Below, one piece after another: positions 1 to 13,500 of a stretch of DNA of 55,898 bases. Under the pieces are notes generated by a model. The model saw nothing but the letters and a program-made list of their open reading frames with translations, did no database searches and was not told the origin of the DNA. Each line of letters opens with the position of its first letter. Within the stretch, counting starts at the first letter, position 1. The DNA is from a virus: the IMG/VR virus record IMGVR_UViG_3300009160_000053, positions 1 to 55,898 of that record, one strand, 5' to 3'. Made by a program: the position numbers and the translations under genes.

Positions 1-12
1 GGAGTAACCACA

Positions 13-249
13 ATGATTGCAATATACAGACAGAACAACAAAGACTGGGTTCTCTCCACTGTGTTTGCCGACAATGTCGCAGGCATGATGTGGCGGGAAT
101 GGTTTGAGAAAGGCGGCTATCAAACCATGACCAAGACCGTCAACTCCGTAAGCGAGCTAACTGACGTCCTTTCCCCTGAGGAAGAGCTGATGTCGGAGAT
201 TTTGGCCGGGGAAAGATCCGGTGGGTTCAAAGGAGTCGATGATGAATAA
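13..249 (+). CDS. Hypothetical small phage protein (78 aa)
   Basis: I do not recognise this family. The start is supported by GGAG at the window edge, eight bases before the ATG. The product is mixed in character: a tryptophan-containing N-terminal half (MMWREWFEKGGYQT) that may be a small alpha/beta fold, and an acidic C-terminus (SPEEELMSEIL). No membrane segment or cysteine pair is seen. The last codons overlap the start of the next gene, so the two are probably translationally coupled. It is the first gene of a long co-directional run of small accessory genes. Confidence 0.6.
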   Translation: MIAIYRQNNKDWVLSTVFADNVAGMMWREWFEKGGYQTMTKTVNSVSELTDVLSPEEELMSEILAGERSGGFKGVDDE

Positions 250-427
250 ACCCATTCACAAGATGACCACGCGTGAGCTTAACAAGGAGTATAACTCCCT
301 GCAGTTCCGCATGAAGGAATTGAGCTGGAACGCGAGTGAGGTCCTGCGTTTGTGCCAGATCGAGCGCGAGATGGAAGACCGTGGGCTAATTGCCGTTCCA
401 GACTTCAAGTTCGAGGCCGTTTCTTGA
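242..427 (+). CDS. Hypothetical small helical protein (61 aa)
   Basis: Unknown function. The reading frame is open from a GTG at 221, but an AAGGAG ribosome site at 230-235 sits at proper distance from the ATG at 242 (an ATG at 239 is also possible). The start overlaps the upstream stop by eight bases. The sequence is highly charged and predicted helical (TRELNKEYNSLQFRMKEL, then REMEDRGL), resembling small phage accessory proteins that act by binding a partner. No catalytic motif is visible. The stop codon TGA lies inside a TTGACA sequence that may be a promoter -35 element for the next gene. Confidence 0.55.
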   Translation: MNKPIHKMTTRELNKEYNSLQFRMKELSWNASEVLRLCQIEREMEDRGLIAVPDFKFEAVS

Positions 428-442
428 CAACTTGTTGACAAT

Positions 443-814
443 ATGAATCTTATCAGCAATTACGTCGAAGAGACAGTGTTCGACCCGGACAATGTGGTGC
501 TAGCCGATGGCTTAGACGACGCCTTTGTGGGTGTTGGCAATGCTTTCGGTGGCACCCCTTGTGCCATTTACGACAAAGACAAAGTCATTGGAATCCTTAT
601 GACGCGGGACGTTATGACCTACGAAGAAGCGTGGGAGTTCTTCGAGTTCAACATCGCCGGCGCCTACGTCGGTGAAGCTACGCCCATCTTCATGAGCGTA
701 ATGGAAAGACCAACTGGTCAGTTCAAAGAGACACAGACCAGCAGCAGCTCGGCTGTGCTTACCCAAACAAAACCCAAACCCAAAACAAAACGGAGGAAAG
801 TTAAATCACAATGA
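443..814 (+). CDS. Hypothetical protein with lysine-rich tail (123 aa)
   Basis: Not recognised. The first 90 residues look like a compact alpha/beta domain with an acidic face (DPDNVVLADGLDDAF). The remainder is a low-complexity Ser/Thr stretch followed by a strongly basic tail (KPKPKTKRRKVKSQ) suited to nucleic-acid contact. There is no clear Shine-Dalgarno before the ATG. Instead TTGACA occurs twice just upstream (424-429 and 435-440), so the start may rely on coupling or a local promoter. The stop overlaps the next start as ATGA. Confidence 0.6.
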   Translation: MNLISNYVEETVFDPDNVVLADGLDDAFVGVGNAFGGTPCAIYDKDKVIGILMTRDVMTYEEAWEFFEFNIAGAYVGEATPIFMSVMERPTGQFKETQTSSSSAVLTQTKPKPKTKRRKVKSQ

Positions 815-960
815 AGATTCATAAAATAGATGGAGAGCTGTACGTGGATTGGACATCCCCAACAGCTGTAGTGAAAGAAGTTCTCAAGATAGCCGGTGTT
901 GCAATCTTTGGGATTGTCAGCTTCTACGCCCTGTGGGTGTTGCTGGACCTAATCGCATGA
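811..960 (+). CDS. Small single-pass membrane protein (49 aa)
   Basis: This short gene reads MKIHKIDGELYVDW..., then one hydrophobic segment at about residues 25-47 (IAGVAIFGIVSFYALWVLLD). The ATG overlaps the upstream stop (ATGA) and GGAGG lies at 792-796. A single membrane helix with a short soluble N-terminus is typical of small phage inner-membrane proteins that modify the host envelope or exclude other phages. No specific function can be assigned. Being very short, it is supported by the overlap, ribosome site and clear hydrophobic segment rather than by homology. Confidence 0.5.
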   Translation: MKIHKIDGELYVDWTSPTAVVKEVLKIAGVAIFGIVSFYALWVLLDLIA

Positions 961-990
961 CCATCTCCAAGCAGAAAGGAAGTAATACAC

Positions 991-1119
991 ATGACAGATG
1001 AAAGAGAGCAAGAGATTCGCGAAGAATGTAAGTGGGACGAGATAAGATGTCGTCAGCTTGACCGTGAAGATCGAGAGAACGGGACTGGCGACTACGCTCC
1101 TAGGGAGGACTGGCAATGA
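991..1119 (+). CDS. Very small charged protein (42 aa)
   Basis: A 42-residue product, almost entirely charged (TDEREQEIREECKWDEIRCR...), with two cysteines five residues apart from basic and acidic runs. GGAAG precedes the ATG at good spacing and the stop overlaps the next start (ATGA at 1116). It fits the packing of the surrounding cluster, so it is probably translated. Function unknown. Confidence 0.45.
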   Translation: MTDEREQEIREECKWDEIRCRQLDREDRENGTGDYAPREDWQ

Positions 1120-1382
1120 AAAGTTCGATTCCGAGCAAAACACTTTGTGCCCGTTACTTCTTAGAAGGCAACGCTCCCAAGTGCAAAGGCAAGTATCAAA
1201 AAGTTAAACAAAGTTACCTGATTGCAGGCAAACGGATTCCCAATCTCTTGTTGTACATATGTGACAAGTGCGGGCACACGACTCTCCCTTGGGCATCCGC
1301 ATTACGAGTCGACAAAGCAACCGCTAAACACAGAGCAAAAATCAAAGAAAGGAAACAACATGGAAACAAACCTAAAAGATAA
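1116..1382 (+). CDS. Small basic protein with zinc-finger-like cysteines (88 aa)
   Basis: The ribosome site AGGGAGG at 1102-1107 and the ATGA overlap fix the start. The protein carries C(23)K-like and a CxxCG pair (YICDKCGHTTLPW) followed by a lysine-rich tail (KATAKHRAKIKERK). The CxxCG...hydrophobic pattern resembles the zinc-binding knuckle of MqsA/YgiT-type proteins, but the helix-turn-helix half of MqsA is absent and no toxin partner is adjacent. Together with the genes at 1640 and 2333 it forms a set of small cysteine-pair proteins in this arm. Nucleic-acid binding is a plausible inference only. Confidence 0.5.
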   Translation: MKSSIPSKTLCARYFLEGNAPKCKGKYQKVKQSYLIAGKRIPNLLLYICDKCGHTTLPWASALRVDKATAKHRAKIKERKQHGNKPKR

Positions 1383-1632
1383 GAAGACAAAAGAGCTAGA
1401 GGCCAAATGGCTAAAGCGATGCGAAGAATGGGATTGGAATTCTAGTATTGCTGACATTGCAAGGGATTTGAAAGACGAAGGTATCGAGTACAGGACAGCA
1501 GAGTTCAGCATTGTTGAACGAGTCTTCAATAAATACTTCGGTGGCAAGAATCATATGACGGGAGTGAACAGCGAAGGCATACCCGTCGTCCCCACAATGG
1601 AAGCCATCGGGGAAATCCTCGAGCAAATCTAA
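1360..1632 (+). CDS. Hypothetical helical protein (90 aa)
   Basis: The frame is open from 1222, but the start is set at 1360 by a good AAAGGA ribosome site, with the same AAAGGAAACAACATG context that precedes the gene at 6176. This overlaps the previous gene by 23 bases. The N-terminal part is helical and charged (KELEAKWLKRCEEWDWN), followed by ADIARDLKDEGIEYRTAEF, which has the look of a small winged-helix or helix-turn-helix segment (a rule-of-thumb reading, not a motif match). Function unknown. Confidence 0.5.
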   Translation: METNLKDKKTKELEAKWLKRCEEWDWNSSIADIARDLKDEGIEYRTAEFSIVERVFNKYFGGKNHMTGVNSEGIPVVPTMEAIGEILEQI

Positions 1633-1639
1633 TCGCAAC

Positions 1640-1873
1640 ATGAAACCCCCGCCAGCAGAGATGTGCGTTGACTGCCGAACTGGAATTTACCAGTGGGTCA
1701 CAAAAGATGACTTTATTGCAGGCATCACCATTAAAGATTTGCGGCATCAAGTATGCGACAACTGCGGCGAAGCCGTCTATGGAGCGCCAGCGCTAGAACG
1801 GATTAGCCGCGAAGTAAAAGAACATAAAGAAAGGAAAACGAAATGCCTAAAAAGACAAAGACAAAAGAACTAA
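1640..1873 (+). CDS. Small zinc-ribbon-like protein (77 aa)
   Basis: Two CxxC knuckles are visible: MCVDCRTG at residues 8-13 and VCDNCGEAVYG at about residues 38-47. The spacing of about 25-30 residues fits a single four-cysteine zinc site. The second knuckle with following small residues resembles YgiT/MqsA N-terminal domains. The C-terminus is very basic (KEHKERKTKCLKRQRQK). There is no strong ribosome site before 1640, and M8 is an alternative start. The end overlaps the next gene by 31 bases. Nucleic-acid or protein binding is likely, but no function is known. Confidence 0.5.
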   Translation: MKPPPAEMCVDCRTGIYQWVTKDDFIAGITIKDLRHQVCDNCGEAVYGAPALERISREVKEHKERKTKCLKRQRQKN

Positions 1874-2142
1874 TGATGACGATAGACACAAGCAACAACG
1901 CCCTCAATGGCATCCCAGTTATACAATTCCTGGTAGCCATGCAAGGGCTGGAAGCTCTGGGTCGCGGCATGATGTTAACTCGGACTGCCACTCCTCAGCG
2001 TCTCATGGAGATTATATCGGCCATCAGCGGTGTTAAGTACAAACGAACCGACAGAAAATTGGCGCTCGAGCATGCGTATGTAATTGAGCATGCAATGAAA
2101 GAAAACAGAAGACAGCTGCAAGAGGACGCAGCACTTCGATGA
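1843..2142 (+). CDS. Hypothetical protein (99 aa)
   Basis: AAAGGAAAA lies just before the ATG and the gene overlaps both neighbours, which supports translation. After a basic N-terminus (PKKTKTK) the protein has two likely helices rich in Ala, Leu and Met (VIQFLVAMQGLEALGRGMML; RLMEIISAISGV), then KYKRTDRKLALEHAYVIEHAM. No cysteines, no membrane segment and no known motif. The stop shares bases with the next start (ATGA at 2139). Confidence 0.5.
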   Translation: MPKKTKTKELMMTIDTSNNALNGIPVIQFLVAMQGLEALGRGMMLTRTATPQRLMEIISAISGVKYKRTDRKLALEHAYVIEHAMKENRRQLQEDAALR

Positions 2143-2336
2143 GCAACAACCTACGGGCTTGGTTTGGCGAAGTGAAGAAAGGCGAAGTCCTTGTTGAGAC
2201 TGAAACTGGTAAACAGTTTGTTGTCGTTGGCAAGGGTGCCAGTACAGCGCATCTAAAAGTGAAAGACATAAACAAACGTGTTTATGAGTTTCACAATTGT
2301 TTCTTACACCCCTACTGCGAAGGAGAAACACCATGA
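2139..2336 (+). CDS. Small beta-rich protein (65 aa)
   Basis: The start is set by the ATGA overlap. The sequence alternates hydrophobic and polar residues (GEVLVETETGKQFVVVGKG, AHLKVKDINKRVYEF), consistent with a small beta barrel of SH3 or OB type, a common shape for phage accessory proteins. No catalytic residues are visible. The stop again forms ATGA with the next gene, so genes 1843-2515 are a coupled set. Confidence 0.5.
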   Translation: MSNNLRAWFGEVKKGEVLVETETGKQFVVVGKGASTAHLKVKDINKRVYEFHNCFLHPYCEGETP

Positions 2337-2515
2337 GCTACACCCTGCGCGAGTGTGACTGTGGTTCAGGAAGGAGTTCCGATTGGGAATATGACGGTTA
2401 CGGCCTACCGCTGTGCCGTACCTGCCCTGACTGCCGAGACACAAAGATTGGCAAGTTCCGGTCAGACATCTTCTCGCGGTACCAGTGCGATGAACCAATT
2501 GAAAATGATTACTAG
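2333..2515 (+). CDS. Cysteine-rich small protein (60 aa)
   Basis: The ATG at 2333 follows AAGGAG with correct spacing and overlaps the previous stop. Six cysteines are present: CDCGSG near residues 8-12, CRTCPDC near 29-35 and one near 52. The CxC...CxxCxxC arrangement suggests at least one zinc site (zinc-knuckle or ribbon). No helix-turn-helix or enzyme motif is seen. It is the last gene before the hairpin pair at 2521-2574, so its mRNA 3' end may be set there. Confidence 0.5.
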   Translation: MSYTLRECDCGSGRSSDWEYDGYGLPLCRTCPDCRDTKIGKFRSDIFSRYQCDEPIENDY

Positions 2516-2520
2516 GTGAC

Positions 2521-2574
2521 CAGACCCCGATGGCAGCTCACCCCTGCCATTCGGTCTGTTCACGATGAACAGAC
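2521..2574 (+). promoter_or_regulatory. Two overlapping, mutually exclusive RNA hairpins upstream of the rII genes
   Basis: Hairpin A pairs CAGACC (2521-2526) with GGTCTG (2553-2558) and TGGCAG (2531-2536) with CTGCCA (2544-2549), with a 7-base loop and a small internal bulge. Hairpin B pairs GTCTGTTCA (2554-2562) with TGAACAGAC (2566-2574), nine perfect pairs with a 3-base loop. The two share GTCTG (2554-2558), so only one can form at a time. The pair lies between the stop at 2515 and the strong ribosome site AAAAAGGAGG before 2600. There is no clear U-tract. It could be an attenuator, a processing site or a translational control element. Confidence 0.5.
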
Positions 2575-2599
2575 ATTAACCAATAAAAAGGAGGATACT

Positions 2600-2923
2600 A
2601 TGAGTCACATTATCACCCCGACAGTTGAACAAGTCGACACGTTCGGCGAAGCAACAGATCGGAAAAACAAAGCGGACAAGTTACGTAACGCTGTGTACCC
2701 GCTATTCAAACTAAGTTACGAGCAAAACAACATCGGAACCTTTGTCGGCACACGCTGGCAAGTCAAAGCAGCAGAGACCACACGGTCTTCGTTAGACGTG
2801 TACCTGCTGATTGAAGCCCTTGCGAAGCTTGGCATTGAAGCCCCTGCCCAGTTGGTAGACGGCTGCTACACCAAGAACACTTACCCTTCGTTTCGGGCAA
2901 GCCCTATCCCGGTGTTAATCTAA
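2600..2923 (+). CDS. Hypothetical protein upstream of rIIA (107 aa)
   Basis: The frame is open from 2516, but AAAAAGGAGG and correct spacing select the ATG at 2600, which leaves the hairpin pair untranslated. The product is soluble, with mixed helix and strand (DKLRNAVYPLFKLSYEQNN; SLDVYLLIEALAKLGIEAP), and no recognised motif. Its stop overlaps the rIIA start as TAATG, so it is translationally coupled to rIIA and probably functions with, or tunes, the rII pair. Confidence 0.6.
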   Translation: MSHIITPTVEQVDTFGEATDRKNKADKLRNAVYPLFKLSYEQNNIGTFVGTRWQVKAAETTRSSLDVYLLIEALAKLGIEAPAQLVDGCYTKNTYPSFRASPIPVLI

Positions 2924-5115
2924 TGGTTATTACACAAGATAGACCGTCGCCCGCGTCAACGGGCGTCAAATCAGAAGTTGGTTTCACCATTGACCCACGC
3001 AACCTGGCACACGTTGTCGGATTGTTGCGCGATGCTTACTCAGACCCAATCGCTGCGGTCTTGCGTGAGTATTCCGTCAACGCCTACGACGCACACGTCG
3101 AAGCCGGCATACCCGATAAGCAAGTGCATATCACCCTGCCCGGCCGGTTTGACCCAACACTCAAGATTCGCGACTTCGGTCGTGGCTTGAGCGAAGATCA
3201 GATCGAAGGCTTGTTTTGTAGCTACGGTGCTTCCAGCAAGCGAGAAAGTAACGATTACACCGGTTGCCTCGGCATCGGCTGTAAGTCAGCGTTTGCAATA
3301 ACGGACTCGTTCTCCGTAACTACATACCACGGAGGTCGAGCACGTACTTACTCCTGCTACCTTGATGAGTCGGAGGTTGGCAAAGCGGCATTACTCAGCG
3401 ACGTCGCTTCCAAAGAGACTGGTCTCTTAATTAGCATCCCGATCAAGAAAGATCAGATGAGTGAGGTCGAGTCGACCGCAGTCAAAGTGTTTCGGTTCTT
3501 TAAGGTGCAACCGCACATTGAGAACCCAAGCACAAAGACCACGATCGAATTGACCAGGCCACGCTACGACTACGATGGCGGCGACATCAAAATTGCTAAG
3601 GAATCCGGCGATTCAATGGTCATCATGGGTAACATTGGTTATCCGCTTGAGGCCAGCCAATTGCCCTCTGACAAGCTGCGTGAGATAGTTAACCATCACA
3701 CGATTCACTTGCACATGCCCATCGGGGCGGTGGACATCGCCCCATCTCGCGAAGACTTAAAGTACAATCCTCGCACCAAAGCGGCGCTCGTGGCTGCTTT
3801 GAGCAAGGGCTTCGTAGAGGTGGGTCAGAAGGCTGTAATGGATATCGCGGGAAGCACAAACTTGCTAAACGCTTTAAGTGTTTACGAGGTAGTTTTTAAC
3901 GCGTATCACCTCGGCCCTTATATTCGCAAGCTCGGTCTGACGCCAAAGTACAAAGGCAAAGAGCTCAAAAGCTCTTCGCTGAGCGTAAGTCTGTCTGAGG
4001 AAGAGATAGCCAAACACAGAGTCACTGTAAGGAGGCTAAGTAAGCTTCGTTACAACCGACGTGGTAGGAACTACGAGCTTACTGCTACTGATTCAATAGA
4101 CGTTCGTAGCGGCACGGTTGTGTACCTAGACACAAAGTCATCGGTGCATGACTTCTTCGGCAGAGTCCGCACTTTACTGGAGACGCCGGACTTCGAAATT
4201 GCGTACGTTGTCAAAGCTCGCGGCAACGGCTTTGACTTCTTAAGCAAGAAGCACCCGCTGCTTCAAGAGATACAATTCACGCCAATCGAAGATGTGGCTT
4301 TTACCGAAGCTCCCAAGACAACAGTCAATGGAGTCTCGGCAGGCCCTATCGCTAAGCACGACGAAGAAGTGTTTACACTCGATACGGCAATGATTGGCCG
4401 ATACTCCAACAAGCAGTCAGATTATTGGAAGAGCGCCAAGGTCAACCTCAGTAATCCCAATGGTGGCGTTTACTTAGAGATTGATCGTTTCCTCATCAAT
4501 GGTGTTACGTCACCAAGGAACTTTGAGGATACTTACAATTCGTTTTGTAAGCTCGGCTTTGACGAAAAGGTGTATGGCTTCAAGCCGTCTGTAGTTGAAG
4601 AGATCAAGAAAGGTAATCATCCGCAATGGGTGAGCTTGCATGACAAGCGCATCGAGCTGCTCAACGCTAAGATTGCCAGAGATCCAGACGCTTTCTGGAA
4701 CCACTACTTCTTCGTTCAACATAAGAGTGGCCAAGAAGATCATGTCGATTCGTTCATGTCAGAAGAGCTGGTGTTGCCAGCTGGCTCTGTTGCACATCAG
4801 TACCAGCAAGCTTTGAGAGACTGTTCTAAACATACAGATCTCATAAACCGTTGCCGGTACGAAGTTGAAAATCATGCGGCTTCTATGGCAGCAAACATTA
4901 AGCCAAAGATTGACTGCGATCTGTTGCAACAAGCTTACAACGCTCGGTACCCAATGAACATACATTGGGACTGGGACAACGACTCCTTCCTTAAAGACAA
5001 CACAACTATTAAGGCAAGACGTCAGCGTAACTTCAAACACCTTTCGGATTACATTCAGCTGGTTGACGAATGCAAACCGATCAAAACAACAATCAACCAA
5101 AAGGAGGTTAAGTAA
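2923..5115 (+). CDS. rIIA: rIIA-like protein, GHKL ATPase fold (730 aa)
   Basis: The N-terminus holds a full GHKL (Hsp90/gyrase/MutL type) ATP-binding set: N-box REYSVNAYDAH with E49, N53 and D56; G1 box DFGRG at 84-88; and G2 loop GCLGIGCKSAF at 114-124. Family knowledge: T4 rIIA is a membrane-associated ATPase-like protein of about 725 residues that, with rIIB, delays lysis and protects against the lambda RexAB exclusion system. Length, motif order and the rIIB-like gene directly downstream all agree. The C-terminal 350 residues are not diagnostic. The start TAATG is coupled to the gene before it. The biochemical role of rIIA is still unsettled, so function is by family only. Confidence 0.85.
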   Translation: MVITQDRPSPASTGVKSEVGFTIDPRNLAHVVGLLRDAYSDPIAAVLREYSVNAYDAHVEAGIPDKQVHITLPGRFDPTLKIRDFGRGLSEDQIEGLFCSYGASSKRESNDYTGCLGIGCKSAFAITDSFSVTTYHGGRARTYSCYLDESEVGKAALLSDVASKETGLLISIPIKKDQMSEVESTAVKVFRFFKVQPHIENPSTKTTIELTRPRYDYDGGDIKIAKESGDSMVIMGNIGYPLEASQLPSDKLREIVNHHTIHLHMPIGAVDIAPSREDLKYNPRTKAALVAALSKGFVEVGQKAVMDIAGSTNLLNALSVYEVVFNAYHLGPYIRKLGLTPKYKGKELKSSSLSVSLSEEEIAKHRVTVRRLSKLRYNRRGRNYELTATDSIDVRSGTVVYLDTKSSVHDFFGRVRTLLETPDFEIAYVVKARGNGFDFLSKKHPLLQEIQFTPIEDVAFTEAPKTTVNGVSAGPIAKHDEEVFTLDTAMIGRYSNKQSDYWKSAKVNLSNPNGGVYLEIDRFLINGVTSPRNFEDTYNSFCKLGFDEKVYGFKPSVVEEIKKGNHPQWVSLHDKRIELLNAKIARDPDAFWNHYFFVQHKSGQEDHVDSFMSEELVLPAGSVAHQYQQALRDCSKHTDLINRCRYEVENHAASMAANIKPKIDCDLLQQAYNARYPMNIHWDWDNDSFLKDNTTIKARRQRNFKHLSDYIQLVDECKPIKTTINQKEVK

Positions 5116-5116
5116 T

Positions 5117-5893
5117 ATGGAAGTAGCATCAATCATCAATCGCGATTCCCTCTCCGCCACAATCGGTACGGAATCGTTCAACATCCCCAGTTCTCATCCC
5201 AAGTTTGAGGACATACGGAGGGCGTTGCTAGACGGAACACCCGGCGAAGAGATTCTGCCGATGTTCCAGACTGCTAAAGCTGTAGTCGACTATACTGACG
5301 GAGCTATTGAGATTCGCGGTGGCAAGGTGTTCTTTGCCAACGAGGAAGTTGGTGGCTCGGTGGTAGACCGCATTCTAGAGTTCATGTCGGAAAAGTTGCC
5401 CAACAAGCCACTATTCCGCTTCCTAGAACGCGTCATGCGCAACCCATCCATGCGCAGTCGCGAGCAGTTATACGACTTCTTGGAGCACAAGAACCTGCCA
5501 CTCACGACCGATGGCAAGTTCCTTGCTTACAAGAGCGTTAGCCGTGAATACATGGATCATCACACTGGCAAGATCTCCAACAAGATCGGCAGCGTGATCG
5601 CCATGCCACGGCATCGGATCTCAGACGATCCTAGCCTTGGTTGTCACACCGGCCTTCACGTCGGTGCGCTCCAATACGCAGCAGACTTTGGCGGCTCTGA
5701 CCGCAAGGTAGTCATCTGCGAGATCGATCCTGAGCATGTAGTGTCTGTGCCACTTGACTGTGAGTGCCAGAAAATGCGTGTCTGTCAGTACCGTGTGGTA
5801 GCTGATTACACAGGTCCGATCGAAAGAAGCCTTGTCGATGATTACGACGATGAAGAGTCGTACGACGAAGACGAAGTAACCTCAACCCAATAA
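5117..5893 (+). CDS. rIIB: rIIB-like protein (258 aa)
   Basis: The ATG at 5117 follows AAGGAGG closely, two bases after the rIIA stop. The core carries the rIIB signature: LPLTTDGKFLAYKSV (127-141), YMDHHTGKISNKIG (145-158), MPRHRISDD, then CHTGLHVGALQYAADF (176-191). The C-terminus is very acidic (about residues 238-253). T4 rIIB is 312 residues, so this one is somewhat short at the ends but complete in the core. With rIIA it is expected to act early at the host membrane in exclusion avoidance or lysis timing. A GC-rich hairpin follows immediately, suggesting the operon ends or is attenuated here. Confidence 0.85.
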   Translation: MEVASIINRDSLSATIGTESFNIPSSHPKFEDIRRALLDGTPGEEILPMFQTAKAVVDYTDGAIEIRGGKVFFANEEVGGSVVDRILEFMSEKLPNKPLFRFLERVMRNPSMRSREQLYDFLEHKNLPLTTDGKFLAYKSVSREYMDHHTGKISNKIGSVIAMPRHRISDDPSLGCHTGLHVGALQYAADFGGSDRKVVICEIDPEHVVSVPLDCECQKMRVCQYRVVADYTGPIERSLVDDYDDEESYDEDEVTSTQ

Positions 5894-5903
5894 GGAGATC
5901 GAT

Positions 5904-5930
5904 GGCTCCGGGGGAAATCCCCCCGGGGCC
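5904..5930 (+). terminator. Strong GC hairpin after rIIB
   Basis: GGCTCCGGGGG (5904-5914) pairs with CCCCCGGGGCC (5920-5930), eleven pairs including one G-U, around a 5-base loop. It starts eleven bases after the rIIB stop. No poly-U run follows (GTCACATTATTATG), so it is not a textbook intrinsic terminator. It may be a terminator of another kind, an mRNA 3'-end protector, or a structure controlling the gene at 5942, which has no Shine-Dalgarno. Confidence 0.55.
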
Positions 5931-5941
5931 GTCACATTATT

Positions 5942-6160
5942 ATGAGTCTACTTAACAGAGCGGCAGTCAAACGTTGCGCGTTGGACATGGCCAGCTTCAA
6001 GTTCAAGGAGCGCAACAAGACAAGATTAGAGATGGGCATCGCACCAATGAAAGCTTCTCCATCAAGAGTAAGCAGTCAATTCATGGATACTTTTGAAGCC
6101 AAAGTGATTGGGTTATTAACCTCAATGGTTAACGATCACAAGACTGGCTTAACACTATAA
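5942..6160 (+). CDS. Small basic protein, possibly DNA-binding (72 aa)
   Basis: The N-terminus SLLNRAAVKRCALDMAS followed by a basic segment (KFKERNKTR) and then RVSSQFMDTFEAKVIGLLTSMV resembles small proteins seen repeatedly in phage genomes. The last helix pattern (R-V-S-x-x-F...L) is reminiscent of histone-fold tails, but this is an impression and not a motif match. There is no Shine-Dalgarno; the ATG lies eleven bases after the GC hairpin, so the hairpin could affect initiation. Confidence 0.5.
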   Translation: MSLLNRAAVKRCALDMASFKFKERNKTRLEMGIAPMKASPSRVSSQFMDTFEAKVIGLLTSMVNDHKTGLTL

Positions 6161-6175
6161 ACGAAAGGAAACAAC

Positions 6176-6514
6176 ATGTTACAAAAAATAGCTAACCCTC
6201 CCCTACCCGTCGTATGGGAGTCAGGAAGATTGGCCAAGACCTTCGGTCAGCCAGAAATGAAACGCTGTGCAACCTCTGACTTTCCGGAGGATCATTGCAC
6301 TGTTCGCACTCATGCCGTCCGAGAAGGTTCGAATGCTCACGTCGCCATATACTTCAAGCGCGCCGACCAAAACAGAATGGTCGCTTACATGTACGGTGAA
6401 CAGGGCGATAGGAAAGTTGGATTCAACAGCGGGGGCTGCTCAGTCCTTGATCTACCCCACGTACTAAAGATCATCAACGACATCGAAGGAATGTTGGCTT
6501 CGCTCAAGTCTTGA
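6176..6514 (+). CDS. Hypothetical protein (112 aa)
   Basis: A clear ribosome site (AAAGGAAACAACATG) supports the start. The protein is soluble and probably alpha/beta: a beta-rich middle (HVAIYFKRADQNRMVAYMYGE) and a C-terminal helix (LPHVLKIINDIEGMLASL). Three cysteines are scattered without zinc-site spacing. I do not recognise the family. The TGA stop is embedded in TTGACA (6511-6516) just before the next gene. Confidence 0.55.
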   Translation: MLQKIANPPLPVVWESGRLAKTFGQPEMKRCATSDFPEDHCTVRTHAVREGSNAHVAIYFKRADQNRMVAYMYGEQGDRKVGFNSGGCSVLDLPHVLKIINDIEGMLASLKS

Positions 6515-6520
6515 CATTTT

Positions 6521-7210
6521 ATGATCAATACTACTACGCCAGACGCATTCTTCGATTCACTTACCAAAAAGGAAATTGATGACCAAACCCAGTACTGGAT
6601 AAAGCACACACCTAACTCAATCGACGAAGTCTTTCGACGTTGGTTGTTTGCTTACACCTCCATCCACACAGGTTGGCAAGCCAATGTCATGGGCTATCAG
6701 GCCATCAAGGACTTCATTCACTGGAAGTGGAACAAGTCAGAGTTACGCAAGCGGTTACGCAAAAGCGGTTGCGGTATGCACAACGTGCGCACTAACTACA
6801 TTTGGGAATTCAGCAAGAAGTTTTGGTCCAATACACCTGACTACCTGGCGCAAGCCGGCGAGTCTTGGCGCTCTTACCGCGACAGGCTTGTACAAAACAA
6901 CAAGGGTATCGGCATCGCCAAGGTAAGTTATGTCTTGGAATTAATGTACCCCCTCACCTGCAAGGTGCTGTGTGGTGACATTCATCAGTGTCGCGCCTAC
7001 GGATTCAAAACAAATCTCGGGGACGACGGCACTGACAAGCATAAGTACGAAACAATGGAGTATCACTGGGTTCAAAAGAGTATTGCCTCCGGAACTAGTG
7101 GTCCCGTAGCTCGTCAGATCTTCTGGAATCGCATGAAGAAACAACCCAACAGCCGATTCTGGAGTTGGGTATTCGAAGAAGAAAGCTTCGCTATCACCAA
7201 CCCGTCATGA
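6521..7210 (+). CDS. Putative helix-hairpin-helix DNA glycosylase-like protein (229 aa)
   Basis: The diagnostic stretch is KGIGIAKVSYVLELMYP (128-144) followed by VLCGDIHQCRAYG (149-161). It matches the HhH-GPD layout, in which a glycine hairpin with a lysine (here K134) is followed about 20 residues later by the catalytic Asp (here D153 in GDIH). Members of this superfamily (endonuclease III, OGG1, AGOG) flip out and excise damaged or modified bases. The N-terminal part (FAYTSIHTGWQANVMGYQAIKDF) is helical, as expected. No iron-sulfur cysteine cluster is present. There is no Shine-Dalgarno; TTGACA lies just upstream. Substrate unknown: it could repair, or remove bases from modified DNA. Confidence 0.55.
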   Translation: MINTTTPDAFFDSLTKKEIDDQTQYWIKHTPNSIDEVFRRWLFAYTSIHTGWQANVMGYQAIKDFIHWKWNKSELRKRLRKSGCGMHNVRTNYIWEFSKKFWSNTPDYLAQAGESWRSYRDRLVQNNKGIGIAKVSYVLELMYPLTCKVLCGDIHQCRAYGFKTNLGDDGTDKHKYETMEYHWVQKSIASGTSGPVARQIFWNRMKKQPNSRFWSWVFEEESFAITNPS

Positions 7211-7425
7211 AAGCCCGTTGGTTCATGCATTACAACAAGCCTGAAAGCAGGCGCAAGGGTCATGCCGTTATGACTCTTCACTACAAAGACGTCTGTCACC
7301 TGGTTCGCAACGTCGTGGTTAACACGCCCTGCGAAAGCCATGAACGGACAAATCAACCCCGCTGCGTAATTCGTGGCTGGGCAACTGATGTCGTCATTAA
7401 CGACGGCATCGCAACCATCAACTGA
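7207..7425 (+). CDS. Hypothetical basic protein (72 aa)
   Basis: The frame is open from 7165, but the ATG at 7207 forms an ATGA overlap with the stop of the glycosylase-like gene, the normal arrangement in this arm. The protein is rich in His and Arg (MKARWFMHYNKPESRRKGH), with beta-strand-like stretches afterwards (CVIRGWATDVVINDGIA). Function unknown; coupling suggests co-expression with the gene before it. Confidence 0.45.
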   Translation: MKARWFMHYNKPESRRKGHAVMTLHYKDVCHLVRNVVVNTPCESHERTNQPRCVIRGWATDVVINDGIATIN

Positions 7426-7435
7426 AAGGATACCA

Positions 7436-8233
7436 ATGAAAATACTAACTCTCGATGAAATCAGAAACCAAGCGCCCGCAGCGTTTGCAACTCAACCCAA
7501 CCCGAAAGTCTCAAAGCGCTACGGGTTCATCAGCACAGTAGAAACTCTTAAGGCTTACGAGAACCTTGGTTGGTTCCCCGTCAAAGCCCGTCAGTCCTTC
7601 ACAAGGATCGAAAGCAATCGACCTTACACCCGCCACGAGATCACCTTCGCTCGTCCGGATGAGAAACCGATTGAGAAGCTTGGCGACGTGTCACCTCGCA
7701 TCCGCCTGCTCAACAGTCACGGGACGGAATCCACCTGGAACAACATTGCCGAGCTGTGCCGAATGATTTGTAGCAACGGCTTAGTCGTTTCAATGGGTTC
7801 TGCCTTTGACTTCCGTGTTCGCCACACAATGTCAGCTGTCGAAAATATTACGGAAACCATTGGGAAGATAGGAGAAGCCTTCCCCATGATTCTGTCCAAA
7901 GCAGAAGCTTGGTCACAGTTAAAGCTTGGTGACGGCAAGATTCTCGCTCTTGGCGCAGCTGCTCTGTCTATTCGGTACGGCCAAGATGAGTCCAAATGGC
8001 CAGCCAATCCAATGGCGATCTCGTTAACTACGCGTCGCCAAGACGACGTAGGGAACGATCTGTGGACGGTGTTCAACAGAGTGCAAGAGAACATTACCCG
8101 CAACGGCAACGTACCAACCAACAAAGTTAACAATCGCCGGCGTTCGATTCGGACCATCCGATCAATCGATTCCGACCTAACCATCAACAAGAAATTGTGG
8201 GAAGCCGCCGAGCAACTGGCGCTTTCCGCCTAA
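7436..8233 (+). CDS. DUF932 family protein (265 aa)
   Basis: AAAGGA precedes the ATG at 7436. The sequence fits the DUF932 / phage-plasmid-like family: early FISTVETLKAYENLGWFPVKA, central NIAELCRMICSNGLVVSMG with R and H just after, and the C-terminal signature RSIDSDLTINKKLWEAAEQL. Family members occur widely in phages and plasmids, often near anti-restriction or replication genes, but their biochemical role is not established. The length is typical and the frame intact. It is the most confidently placed family between rIIB and GP88. Confidence 0.8.
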   Translation: MKILTLDEIRNQAPAAFATQPNPKVSKRYGFISTVETLKAYENLGWFPVKARQSFTRIESNRPYTRHEITFARPDEKPIEKLGDVSPRIRLLNSHGTESTWNNIAELCRMICSNGLVVSMGSAFDFRVRHTMSAVENITETIGKIGEAFPMILSKAEAWSQLKLGDGKILALGAAALSIRYGQDESKWPANPMAISLTTRRQDDVGNDLWTVFNRVQENITRNGNVPTNKVNNRRRSIRTIRSIDSDLTINKKLWEAAEQLALSA

Positions 8234-8247
8234 CCCTGAAAGGAACT

Positions 8248-8433
8248 ATGAGAAAAGGAAGACCACGTATCTATTGGGACAAGCTTGTCCAAGGCATTCG
8301 TCGCCGCGGACACTTGTCACAACAACAACTAGCAAACCTGCTCAACACCAGCCAACCAGTCATAAGCAACTGGGAATGGTCGGTGGCCGAGCCTCAGCTC
8401 CGCTTCAAGCGGAAGCTAGAGGTTCTTGCTTGA
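8248..8433 (+). CDS. Small XRE/Cro-type helix-turn-helix regulator (61 aa)
   Basis: AAAGGA sits before the ATG at 8248. The core HLSQQQLANLLNTSQPVISN followed by WE is a classical Cro/C1-type helix-turn-helix (residues about 22-42), with the usual Q at the start of helix 2 and S/N at the recognition helix. It has almost no C-terminal extension, so like Cro it may act as a compact dimer or need a partner. It is probably an internal repressor of this gene cluster or a binder of host operators. No lysogeny genes are seen nearby. The stop overlaps the TTG start of the next gene. Confidence 0.75.
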   Translation: MRKGRPRIYWDKLVQGIRRRGHLSQQQLANLLNTSQPVISNWEWSVAEPQLRFKRKLEVLA

Positions 8434-9185
8434 CCGTATATGCCAAAGACCTACTCAAATTCGGCAACGGTAATGCTAAACTTGAGGAAGGTATTTACCA
8501 CGTCAGCCTGTTGTCAGGCCACACGTGCCCCTATGCCCAGGAATGCCTGGCAAAAGTTAATCTTTCTACTGGAAAGATTATCGACGGTAAGGGAGCGTCA
8601 TTTCGGTGTTACTCCGCGTCCATGGAAGCCATGTACCCTGCCTTGCGTAGGCAACGTGAGCACAACACTAACCTGTTGCGCTACAAGTATCCTACCTTTG
8701 AGGGCATGGTTGGCTTGATTGAGCGGTCTCTGCCGGTGCATGCGCGCTATATTCGCATTCATATTGGCGGTGACTTCTTCAATCAAATCTACTTCGACGC
8801 TTGGGTTGAGACGGCCAAAAGAAATCCTGGAATTATCTTTTACGCCTACACCAAGAGTTTGAACTTCTGGGTAGCTAGGCTCAACGATATCCCGGATAAC
8901 CTCAGGCTGACTGCTAGCCGAGGCGGCTATTGGGACCACCTCATTGATACGCATAACCTACGCTCTGCAGAAGTTGTGTTCAGTGAATCGGAGGCAAACA
9001 TACGTGGACTAGAAATAGACCACGACGACAGCCATGCTTACGGAAACGACCCTAAGTCGTTTGCCCTACTACTTCACGGCACACAGCCAAAAGGCAGCAA
9101 AGCGGCAGAATCGCTATCGTCACTACGAAAAGCTGGGTTCAACGGCTATTCCAACAAAAAGAAAGAGGTACACCTTGGAGTTTAA
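8430..9185 (+). CDS. GP88-family phage protein (251 aa)
   Basis: No usable ATG exists near the conserved N-terminus. A TTG at 8430 forms TTGA with the upstream stop and has GAGG seven bases ahead, so it is the best start. The protein begins with the family signature LLKFGNGNAKL, then SLLSGHTCPYAQECLAK with a CxxxxxC pair, FRCYSASMEAMYPALR, and the barrel-like IRIHIGGDFFNQIYFDAW and YAYTKSLNFW. These are features of the gene product 88 family found in many tailed phages. Function unproven; the cysteine motif suggests metal or cluster binding. The family is confident, the role unknown. Confidence 0.75.
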   Translation: MTVYAKDLLKFGNGNAKLEEGIYHVSLLSGHTCPYAQECLAKVNLSTGKIIDGKGASFRCYSASMEAMYPALRRQREHNTNLLRYKYPTFEGMVGLIERSLPVHARYIRIHIGGDFFNQIYFDAWVETAKRNPGIIFYAYTKSLNFWVARLNDIPDNLRLTASRGGYWDHLIDTHNLRSAEVVFSESEANIRGLEIDHDDSHAYGNDPKSFALLLHGTQPKGSKAAESLSSLRKAGFNGYSNKKKEVHLGV

Positions 9186-9492
9186 TTCAATTCCAGACCC
9201 AGTAAGCACACCAAACAATCTTGATCGTGAGCATGTCCTCCGTAAGTTCTCGGACGTCGGATGGCATGTTAACGGCAAGTTCTATTACACTCCTACAAAG
9301 GGTGTAGGGTTATCGTATCCAGTTGAGTATCAAGCCCTCATTGACCCATGGGGCGCAACACGAGAAGACCAGGTGGTTAACTTCTCAATCGACATACCAA
9401 ATCAGTTGGCAGAAGAACTACTGACTCCAGTTCGAGATGCCGCTAGGCAAGTCATTCATGGCGACCTTAGTAAAGCTGAGTTAGCAGGTTGA
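9175..9492 (+). CDS. Hypothetical protein (105 aa, TTG start)
   Basis: The frame is open from 9034, but a TTG at 9175 with GAGG six bases upstream, overlapping the end of the GP88 gene, is the likely start, the same arrangement as that gene's own start. The product has an aromatic N-terminal half (DVGWHVNGKFYYTPTKGV) and a helical C-terminus (LAEELLTPVRDAARQVIHGDL). No recognised motif. The GC hairpin at 9502-9531 follows ten bases after its stop. Confidence 0.5.
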   Translation: MEFNSIPDPVSTPNNLDREHVLRKFSDVGWHVNGKFYYTPTKGVGLSYPVEYQALIDPWGATREDQVVNFSIDIPNQLAEELLTPVRDAARQVIHGDLSKAELAG

Positions 9493-9501
9493 ATCACACG
9501 C

Positions 9502-9531
9502 TGCCCCGGGGTTCTATCCCCCAGGGTGGCA
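9502..9531 (+). terminator. GC hairpin with GGGTTCTATCCC core
   Basis: TGCC, CC and GGGG (9502-9511) pair with CCCC, GG and GGCA (up to 9531), with two small bulges, around the loop TTCTAT. It lies between the stop at 9492 and the gene at 9549. No U-run follows. The 13-base core GGGTTCTATCCCC also forms the tip of the hairpin at 46292-46316 on the other strand, so the element is reused in this genome. Terminator or mRNA-end element is the likeliest role. Confidence 0.5.
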
Positions 9532-9548
9532 CTTAACAGAAAGGAAAC

Positions 9549-9836
9549 ATGAAACTATTCTTAACATTACTACTCGCAGGCCACACGTTACTTGCACAAG
9601 AGATTGTCATATCAGCTAACCCTGATCTGCTTTATTCAACTGCAAATGATTATGGCCCTTGGGGCGCGCCAGAGTTCCTTAATTCGCCTAACAACGATTA
9701 CGGTCCTCTTGGAAGCCCTGAGTTCATAAGTAGCGTAACGAATGAATATGGCTTTGGTGTAACTGCAACTGAGCTTCAGTTGTTTACCCCAAACTCAATT
9801 ACGCCGCTTGAATTAGATATTCTAAATACGCCCTAG
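9549..9836 (+). CDS. Small exported protein with NDYGP repeats (95 aa)
   Basis: The strong ribosome site AAAGGAAAC precedes the ATG. The N-terminus MKLFLTLLLAGHTLLAQ is a clear Sec signal peptide, with likely cleavage near residue 17 and no lipobox. The mature part, about 78 residues, contains three related units: NDYGPWGAPEF, NDYGPLGSPEF and NEYGFGVT. It contains no cysteine and no membrane segment. It is expected in the periplasm or at the cell surface. Role unknown; export by an infecting phage suggests envelope modification or superinfection blocking. It is preceded by a hairpin and overlaps the opposing gene by 15 bases. Confidence 0.65.
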   Translation: MKLFLTLLLAGHTLLAQEIVISANPDLLYSTANDYGPWGAPEFLNSPNNDYGPLGSPEFISSVTNEYGFGVTATELQLFTPNSITPLELDILNTP

Positions 9837-10184
9837 TTTATTTAGGTTGGCCCTTCGCTGCGCACAAGCACCACATGTTTTGATGCTTGTGCCAGCGATG
9901 CGGTCAATTACTCCCGCTATCGGTTGCGCAATCGCGCTAACCGCATCCCCCAAACCAAACTCTTCACACCACTTGCCCCTCTCACCAGGTAAAATCTTAT
10001 CGCAGATTTGATCTTGTATCAGTTGCCCAAGACTCGACGGCACCTCAAAGCCCTTAGATGCCCTCTTGTTTACTGCTGTGGCAATTAGATTTTGATACGT
10101 GTTTTCTAACATTACTTCTTTTGTAAGAGGATCAGTAAATTCCCAACCGTTTGGCGGTGCTAACGCTAATGTTTTAAGTCTCAT
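9822..10184 (-). CDS. Hypothetical late-strand protein with CxxC motif (120 aa)
   Basis: Read leftwards from an ATG at 10184 (a TTG at 10214 is in frame but less likely). The N-terminus MRLKTLALAPPNGWEFTDP leads to helices (LENTYQNLIATAVNKRASKG). The C-terminus is KTCGACAQRRANLNKL, a CxxC pair followed by basic helix, a tail often found in small proteins of phage structural modules. It is the last gene of the late strand, beyond the giant gene and across a small + strand gene. Function unknown. Its 3' end overlaps the exported-protein gene. Confidence 0.5.
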   Translation of the reverse strand: MRLKTLALAPPNGWEFTDPLTKEVMLENTYQNLIATAVNKRASKGFEVPSSLGQLIQDQICDKILPGERGKWCEEFGLGDAVSAIAQPIAGVIDRIAGTSIKTCGACAQRRANLNKLGRI

Positions 10185-10513: not shown

Positions 10514-13500
10514 TTAATCCACGTTACGAGGGCCAAGCTCTCGAGTCATTTGCTTCCGCTCGCTTGCCTTATCCCAAAGCTCATATTTATTTAAGACAAG
10601 TACGTCTGCAAGCTTGTTCGCTTTGCCAGTAAGCCGAGTGATTTCGTTCTGGACATCACCTGCCCCTCGAGAGGGCAGTTCCTTCACCCATTCCGGATCT
10701 CGAAGTCTTTCTCTTAGAACCCTTGCTCTCTCCATTACCCAATCATCACGTTGCTCGTCGTTAAGCGTAATCCCCCTCACCCTTACAATTCTATCTGGCA
10801 TCGATACCCAAGCGCGTTGCTTGGCTAGCTCAGACCACAAAGGATCTGGATTATCTCGGTACCTCAAAACAATATCCGCATAGTTGAACAAAGCCTGCTT
10901 CGCCCTATCCCAATTATCTTTAGGAACCGAAGCACCGTCTGAGAGCATTGGCTCCCCAAGAACGTTGGTCATTGGCTTGTTAAAGTTCCGCAAGAACGGG
11001 ATGTTTCCAAGAGCCATCGCCATCACGCCGGTCGCACTATGGACATTTCCAAACTTATCAGTCTTCTCAGGGAAGATCTTTCTATCCGCTTCAGTCAACA
11101 AGTTGCCAAAAGCCAAGGAGCTGCCCGTCTTCATCAGGAAGCCAACAGCCTTTCTATCCCATGTTGCGCTCTCCAAGTTACTTAAATCGCTAAGAGTTTT
11201 CACTCCACCAAGGAAGGGAACATCCAAAACGCCGGCACCAAACGATTTGAAGGCGGCCAATGTAAATTGCATCGCCACCTCGCTAGACGCCGCTTGGTCA
11301 GGTTTCTCGTACTTCGAGTAATCGCTCATGTATCCCAAAGCCTTAAAGACAAGGTAGGTTGGCGACCAGTTCGGATTCTTGAACCAAAAGTTACCAATCT
11401 TAATGCTATCCGCTTGCCACTTACCGCTATCAATTAAAGCTTGTTTGTAAGCAAAGTCAGTTGGTCCTCGACCAGAGAAATCAATAAAGTGTTCTTTCTC
11501 CTCTTTGTCGTCGTCACACATTCTCCCAATAATTGCGGCAATACCCGCGGCAAGCGCCACCATCCCAAAGATTCCACTGCCCAGCTCCATTGCTTTCATG
11601 TCGCTCGGTTTTGTCCTTTTGCCCTCCCCGTAAACGGTCACCGTATCGCTCCCACTCTTGAGCAACCCGTAACCCACCCAGTTCAACCAGTTCTGATAGA
11701 CCGACGTTACGATTCCGTAGAAAGGCTGAACTAGCTTTGCTGCAAGGTGTTCGTTTGACCACCCTTCTAACAGCTTCGAAAGCTTCCCAAGAACACCGAT
11801 AGGCTTGTTTGTATTTGCCATCACGGTACCTAGGAAGAACGCGTCTTCTGTAATTGCCCCGACCATTCTATCAATAGCTACCTTCTCTGACTGACTGCCC
11901 TTATTCCATACCCTGTTCCAATAAGAATTATTAACTCCTCTATTCCTTCTCATTCTCAAATACAATTCCTGCCTAAAGTCTAGCGTCCCGGGCTTTAGCC
12001 TTTCACCCCGCTCTTGCCTTGCCTCTGCTTCCAACTCTTGAACAATCCCAGGGCCTTCAAACCCATTAGGCAGGTACTCGTTTCTGCCAGCAATCTGTCG
12101 GCCTAGCTGTAAGACATTCTTTAGATCAGTAGACAATAGCATATCAGCTTTCGGGGCTAATCCTTGATAGTTGTTTTGCAAATCCTTAACCACATCTTCG
12201 GCAGCCAAAGCTGCACATATTTCCGTGTAGAATGTGGTGGTTCCCAAATCCAGAGAGTTATACAACCTGGATATCAGCACTCCCAAGCCTGTCGGGCTAA
12301 CCTGAATAACCGGAGTTGTTTCAGGATAGGCTGGTGCTCGAACTGTGCCAACTCCCGCAACCTTGGCCGCGCCACGCACCAACTTAAATGTCTTATCCCA
12401 TACACCCTTTGAGATCGCAATCTTGGGCCAAATCCCCTTTCGGTTCCATCCAAACCAAAGTTCAGCCATCCCGCTAATCCATCGGCCAAACGATGATTCC
12501 GCGTTAATCCTAACACCCCCTTCAGCCATAATCTCTGGCAAGGGCCTACCCGAAATACGGGAAGCAAGAGTCTTGCCAGGAGCTAAGGCTTTTCCAGCGC
12601 TGTCTCCGGTCGCAAGCAAATCAACAACCTCGACAAAAGCTGTGTTCAAAGCCCTAGGCAAGGCCTTGTAAACTGCTTTCGTTGAGGAAAAGCTTTTCTC
12701 TTTGGCTGCCCTCATCCCAAGGATTGAGACAAGATTAAGAGTATTCCCGATAGGTGAGAGCAAGTTTACGGAAATGGTTTTTACACCCTGAAGAATGTTT
12801 GTATAGAATTGCCCAACAAAAGCCTCAAGCACTGTTACCCCGGAGTCTTTCTTTATCTCGTCGAGAATATCCAACGTCTTGGTAGCTGCGCTCCTTGAGT
12901 TTGGTCCGTTCGGGTCGTTGACAATTTCTTCTGCTAGCTCACGGATTTTCTCTGCCGACTGCTTACTGATCGACCAATCTTCGTTCTGAAGTTTGAGCTT
13001 CTTAGCGATAAACTTGTAAATGTCCTCGTCCGTCAAATTCCCCGTCAGCGCCAGCTTAACAATACTGCCAGCGTTTTCTTTTATCACCCTTGTTGCTTTG
13101 TTATCCGCCTTTCCAAATAGGCGCTGCATCGACTTCTGAAACTCTTCCTTAGCAAGTGTCTCAAGTTCTTCCGACACTTTCGTCAACACACGATTCAGTG
13201 TTTCTGGCTTAACCTCTATTCCGCTAACCCGAAGTTCTTTGGTCAACTCCGCAAGGACTTCAGCTTTTCTGCCAGCAAGCAGATACCGTCTATTAAAGAC
13301 AAAGTCTTTAAAGTTAAACGCTGGTGTCGTCATGAAAGCCCGAATGTCTGATTTTGTAAACGGCTCGTCCATTGCTTCAGACATGGCCTGCATAATCTTT
13401 GGGTAGCTGCCCTCGTCCACCGACTCAGCCAATTGACGATTAACAATGTCGATTGCCTGGCCAAGAGATTCCCACGAGTTCATGGCGTCCCTAAATCGCT

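Follow-up and report, generated by a model that had tools for sequence, protein, structure and literature searches.

A conserved leader with two mutually exclusive predicted folds at the 5′ border of a phage rII module

Introduction

Does the widest gap between the early genes of a phage harbour an RNA element that controls the adjacent rII genes, and by which mechanism could it act? To our knowledge, little is known about the control of rII homologues outside T4. The window, i.e., the whole stretch of DNA analysed here, is a 55,898-base IMG/VR virus record in which the early genes are located on the + strand and nearly abut. Among the 18 gene junctions in the window between positions 13 and 8233, only two gaps exceed 30 nt, namely 84 nt (2516-2599) and 48 nt (5894-5941), the sizes of neighbouring gaps in this list being approximate. 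The 84-nt gap is the widest in the run of early genes, and both gaps together flank the rII module, which comprises a 107-aa ORF followed by rIIA and then rIIB. The original prediction, made from the letters of the DNA, had placed two overlapping hairpins ahead of the rII genes; this position holds, although the 107-aa ORF intervenes before rIIA and rIIB. The features of the locus are as follows:

2333-2515, + strand: 60-aa ORF upstream of the leader, the TAG stop of which (2513-2515) directly abuts arm 1
2516-2526, + strand: arm 1 (GTGACCAGACC), the outer 5′ strand of hairpin A, unchanged in both relatives (G001 and G002, see below)
2529-2551, + strand: inner stem-loop of hairpin A with 8 pairs and a 7-nt loop, present in both folds
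2553-2563, + strand: arm 2 (GGTCTGTTCAC), partner of either arm 1 or arm 3
2554-2574, + strand: hairpin B with 9 pairs and the loop CGA, its 3′ strand being arm 3 (2566-2574)
2575-2599, + strand: A-rich spacer, then the strong ribosome site AAAAAGGAGG, with virtually no pairing in either fold
2600-2923, + strand: 107-aa ORF, first gene of the rII module, without family match
2923-5115, + strand: rIIA homologue (phrog_612, E 4e-96)
5117-5893, + strand: rIIB homologue (phrog_609, E 2e-72)
5901-5933, + strand: GC-rich hairpin in the second structured gap, at the 3′ border of the rII module

Results

The leader is predicted to adopt two exclusive folds

Hairpin A comprises 18 pairs between 2516 and 2563 in blocks of 4, 6, and 8 (2516-2519/2560-2563, 2521-2526/2553-2558, and 2529-2536/2544-2551), and is therefore larger than the hairpin of about 12 pairs in two blocks from 2521 that had been proposed. 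Hairpin B, in which the strands GTCTGTTCA and TGAACAGAC enclose the loop CGA, was recovered exactly as described before, with 9 perfect pairs at 2554-2574. The segment common to both hairpins does include GTCTG at 2554-2558, as first noticed, but the full overlap spans 2553-2563, i.e., arm 2. Pairing of arm 2 with arm 1 yields a long form (hairpin A), whereas pairing with arm 3 yields a short form, in which hairpin B stands beside the inner stem-loop. The predicted pair probabilities amount to ~0.67 for arm 2:arm 1 and ~0.33 for arm 2:arm 3, and with one partner blocked the ensemble energies are -27.61 vs -26.25 kcal/mol (a difference of ~1.4). In line with the proposed mutual exclusion, the folding model shows two exclusive leader folds of near-equal predicted energy. 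Hairpin B ends 10 bases upstream of AAAAAGGAGG, rather than the 11 originally counted, and 26 nt upstream of the AUG.

The region 2480-2620 is predicted to be more stable than its dinucleotide shuffles (z -2.92), and the value decreases to -3.70 for 2513-2602 and -4.65 for 2514-2565. The folding energy alone is not extreme, since ~0.7% of the 70-nt windows on the + strand of the contig are equally stable. Comparing the strands, z is -3.70 in the window and -4.52 in the relative G001 on the + strand vs -2.25 and -2.85 on the - strand.

The pairing segments are conserved in a diverged relative

By pattern and protein scans, the leader was traced to two further contigs of IMG/VR, namely IMGVR_UViG_3300042197_003319 (G001) and IMGVR_UViG_3300027971_000120 (G002), and searches for further relatives with the 107-aa protein and rIIB returned only these two. 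G002 shows 94% identity in this region and 96% amino-acid identity in the 107-aa ORF; between 2515 and 2584 its leader carries no change, and a 2-nt indel in the A-run comes next. The window, G001, and G002 thus provide only two distinct leader sequences. G001 is more diverged, with an amino-acid identity to the window of 50% for rIIA and 70% for the 107-aa ORF and an identity at four-fold sites of 36% (rIIA, 157 sites) and 49% (107-aa ORF, 35 sites).

In the leader of G001, 44 of the 46 paired bases are unchanged, as opposed to changes in 5 of the 15 unpaired columns (Fisher p 0.008, the gaps of the alignment having been set manually within the loops). When sites are treated as independent, the chance of at least 44/46 unchanged bases is ~7e-12 at the four-fold identity of 0.49 and 2e-5 at an identity of 0.70. 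The single change in arm 2 (2563 C to T) converts a G-C into a G-U pair and thus keeps the pairing. In arm 3, the 8 bases GAACAGAC are intact despite changes on either side (probability 0.003 at identity 0.49 and 0.06 at 0.70); consequently, hairpin B of G001 comprises 8 pairs with the loop ATTA, the end pair at 2566 being lost. The arms of the inner stem-loop are unchanged and its loop is changed. Moreover, the two folds are again balanced in G001 (-30.49 vs -30.54; z -4.52).

Judged by this comparison, all three arms are under selective constraint. Arm 3 is constrained like arm 1, suggesting that the conservation is not accounted for by either hairpin on its own. Arm 2 would be expected to be frozen because it has to pair with two partners; a protein-binding site would be frozen too. 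The original prediction had pointed to relatives for both conservation and covariation, and only the former was found: the two distinct leader sequences show no compensatory double changes and, as no pair is altered on both sides, the signal is one of conservation and not of covariation. Recent transfer as the source of the arm identity is disfavoured, because loops and spacer have diverged and the stems have not. Taken together, the leader is very likely a real conserved element and, since the diverged relative keeps the pairing segments nearly letter for letter, probably an RNA control element. The data further suggest that the alternative pairings have been maintained by selection across a divergence that leaves four-fold sites close to saturated.

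The arrangement is rare

Searching the window for the pattern of hairpin B with as many as 3 mismatches gave a single occurrence, against an expectation of 0.03, and a three-arm scan revealed no second copy of the arrangement there. The same scan, the criterion of which was written after the element was known, was applied to both strands of 80 other loci (1.69 Mb), leaving out 15 duplicate loci of the same family. It gave 9 matches, 5 of which represent the element in the two relatives and 4 lie elsewhere, compared with 1 match in block-shuffled sequence. A three-arm pattern search returned 3 viral stretches (the two known relatives and L089, a chance match) and 6 genome stretches; the 7 extra matches lack, by eye, both the inner stem-loop and the symmetry of hairpin B and look like chance. 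Combining hairpin B with a ribosome site retrieved 23 viral stretches, only one of which (L020) is the leader element, the other 22 being without arm 1 by eye. Two of the 4 viral stretches found with the inner-stem pattern are the known relatives. We also observed a CTGTTCA/TGAACAG palindrome shortly before AGGAG in three of these 22 pattern-selected stretches (L035 1077-1114, L028 7904-7941, and L026 6913-6947), in the contigs of which neither rIIA nor the 107-aa protein has a match.

A search with rIIA yielded distant loci at 26-41% identity. Upstream DNA (700 nt) was folded for 44 of 45 such loci, L005 being dropped for too little upstream sequence, and 28/44 had a best window with z < -2.8. 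This is unremarkable given that each locus contributed 32 windows and that z fell below -3 in 3.8% of the 1408 control windows. Among these loci, the three-arm scan matched only L019, L069, and L084, at other sequences. The leader DNA has no real match among phages, and the 107-aa protein none in genome contigs or the phage collection and none to a Pfam or PHROG family; its structure model is too poor for use (mean pLDDT 48).

The upstream gene differs at the foot of hairpin A

In G001, the homologue of the 60-aa ORF (L022 3441-3623) is separated from the leader by a 61-aa ORF (L022 3627-3812), which has a counterpart in G002 and is absent from the window. This difference stops exactly at the 5′ foot of hairpin A (2515/2516). 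The gene immediately upstream differs, and the distance from its stop codon to arm 1 is 0 nt in the window and 7 nt in G001 and G002.

Attenuation, masking, and coding function are not supported

The original prediction had likened the hairpins to an attenuator. The trp and pyr attenuators work by alternative folds, and here, too, arm 2 pairs upstream or downstream and a ribosome could choose; in contrast to these systems, the leader has no U-tract, no conserved leader peptide, and no masked ribosome site. Because no U-tract follows hairpin A or B, an intrinsic terminator was rejected, and the terminator scan gave no + strand site at the leader (in window positions 1-10000 it found 11 terminator-like sites with 10.6 expected, i.e., chance level). 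A translational switch that masks the ribosome site was likewise dismissed, as this site is free in both predicted folds. An attenuator-type read-out, as classically understood, is therefore unsupported, and so is the idea that a metabolite selects the fold, for which we found no evidence, including no Rfam family match to the leader at the gathering score.

The leader does not behave as a coding sequence either, as none of its reading frames persists in all three contigs: the frame starting at GTG2516 is broken by the 2-nt indel in G002 and by a TAA in G001, and the frame starting at ATG2530 comprises 12 codons in the window and 61 in G001. For want of a conserved short frame, a leader-peptide attenuator was rejected.

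Other features of the window

The 48-nt gap at the opposite border of the module shows the order AAGGAG (~5892-5897), the GC-rich hairpin with its 14 pairs (5901-5933), and the start codon ATG (5942) of the following ORF. This hairpin would draw the AAGGAG ribosome site close to the start codon, which can be compared with the split ribosome site of T4 gene 25 described in the excerpted text of PMC3014915. It is kept in G001 with altered letters, and it is also terminator-like. On either strand, the most stable fold in the window is located at 9841-9920, between the early (+) and late (-) blocks, and is perhaps a two-way terminator. On the - strand, a 5127-aa ORF (10514-25897) has, by eye, a helicase-like part and LysM-like repeats, and perhaps encodes a polyvalent virion protein; the piece that was family-scanned (18265-25894) has no significant PHROG match. 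A subtilase-family protein (PF00082; 33232-34926, - strand) is found among the late genes, adjoining a collagen-like protein.

Discussion

The reading that we tentatively favour, at a probability of about 38%, is that the leader represents a cis-acting, non-coding intercistronic element of the early mRNA that borders the rII module on its 5′ side, comparable to the processing or stability hairpins of T7. The early mRNA of T7 contains five RNase III cut sites according to the excerpted text of PMC4858673. The leader resembles R1.1 and R1.3 in that an irregular hairpin is placed between co-transcribed early genes, from which a short A-rich spacer leads to a strong ribosome site, and the hairpin indeed lies between co-directed, closely spaced genes. 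For comparison, we folded from the T7 record the region that we take to be R1.3 and obtained a long hairpin with interruptions, followed by a short spacer rich in A and then a ribosome site. The leader differs from R1.1 and R1.3 by its conserved competing second hairpin, and RNase III cleavage would be putative here. As a separate observation, the spacer segment TTAACCAATA (2576-2585) is identical, letter by letter, to ten bases that follow the hairpin of T7 R1.3 (L096 811-876), perhaps by chance. A T7-like RNA polymerase (PF00940) found no match in the three contigs, in a search that had no working positive control.

On this T7-like reading, the leader would act in cis on the polycistronic early mRNA. 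The long form with its 18 interrupted pairs would serve like the irregular hairpins that T7 presents to RNase III before early genes, and hairpin A would either be cut or act as a stable end, so that the rII message would acquire its own 5′ end and a decay independent of the upstream genes. Formation of the short form, consisting of the inner stem-loop and hairpin B, would disrupt the long duplex and thereby set the amount processed, and a ribosome halted at the upstream stop codon would cover arm 1 and favour the short form. Two points weigh against processing: 18 interrupted pairs may be short for RNase III, and a pure processing hairpin would not need arm 3. Moreover, the near-invariant arm sequence could equally mean that a sequence-specific protein binds.

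Alternatively, though with a clearly smaller likelihood, translation itself might set the switch, as the original prediction had considered with another read-out: a terminating ribosome on arm 1 would allow hairpin B to form and shorten the single-stranded landing stretch upstream of the ribosome site, whereas without a ribosome on arm 1 the long form would prevail and 2564-2599 would stay open. The near-equal energies retained in G001 and the conservation of all three arms are consistent with such a role. A stop codon that precedes arm 1 by 0 or 7 nt in 3/3 contigs, despite the differing upstream gene, could permit a terminating ribosome to choose the fold. However, a nearby stop codon is expected in any compact string of genes, the arms do not covary, and hairpin B ends well before an AUG whose ribosome site is open in both folds. 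The broader version, a bistable switch thrown by the ribosome on completing translation of the upstream gene, with the fold deciding either the cutting of the rII message or the loading of ribosomes, seems about as doubtful.

Somewhat less probable still is an operator acting as DNA, in which a phage HTH protein would be the putative binder of three half-sites (TGAMCAGAC at 2517 and 2566, and its complement at 2554). These half-sites are conserved, the exact forms tested are absent elsewhere in the window and from L054 and L055, and both relatives encode a homologue of a small HTH_3-like ORF (8248-8433), at 83.6% identity in G002 and 54.1% in G001. Its HTH_3 score of 22.3 falls below the Pfam cut-off of 23 (E-value 0.00013), though, and in G001 the spacing of both dyads differs by one base (loop A +1; the B palindrome 20 instead of 21 bp), so that the fixed half-site spacing of a dimeric HTH protein is not kept, as judged on two distinct sequences. 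Furthermore, the inner stem of hairpin A, which lies outside any half-site, is equally conserved, and the site scan revealed no + strand promoter-like site at the leader.

That the 107-aa protein binds its own leader RNA is unlikely. Conservation of the arm sequence, not of pairing alone, would agree with autogenous control, for which T4 gene 43 offers a precedent (excerpted text of PMC3014915); there, too, a conserved hairpin lies tens of bases upstream of an early gene start. The T4 operator is recognised through its loop, and its binding site overlaps that of the ribosome (PMC3014915), whereas the loops of the leader vary between the relatives; in addition, the candidate binder has neither a family match nor a usable structure model.

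We consider it improbable that the stem-loop is a cassette for recombination or termination, comparable to the PeSLs found in T4-type phages (excerpted text of PMC4503421), and marks a place of gene gain and loss. As in PeSLs, it is located just after a stop codon at a border of gene gain and loss, with the 61-aa ORF of G001 and G002 missing up to the foot of hairpin A. In contrast to PeSLs, it lacks an early promoter consensus and a U-rich terminator tail and is present in one copy per stretch searched, and its conserved stems and diverged loops argue against recent transfer.

Finally, a promoter of the N4 type, i.e., a short-stem hairpin with a 3-nt loop that is read by a virion RNA polymerase and just after which the message would start, is very improbable: hairpin B has such a loop with a central purine, but that of G001 has 4 nt, and hairpin A would be unexplained. 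Neither the catalytic region of the N4 polymerase (with domain bounds that we assumed) nor PF00940 found a match in the three contigs, which is a weak negative, as these are possibly fragments and no positive control gave a signal.

By its layout of two adjacent stem-loops, the short form may also be likened to the put RNA of HK022. In the literature on rIIA/rIIB leaders, riboswitches, and alternative structures in phage operons, we found no such element by title or start of the abstract; with subscription journals mostly uncovered, this is weak evidence of novelty.

The leader thus provides a compact and testable RNA where an rII module begins, in a group of phages that has been little characterised. 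If it were only a processing hairpin, it would represent ordinary phage biology in a new place. If it were a bistable switch, the rII genes would be coupled to the translation of the early operon.
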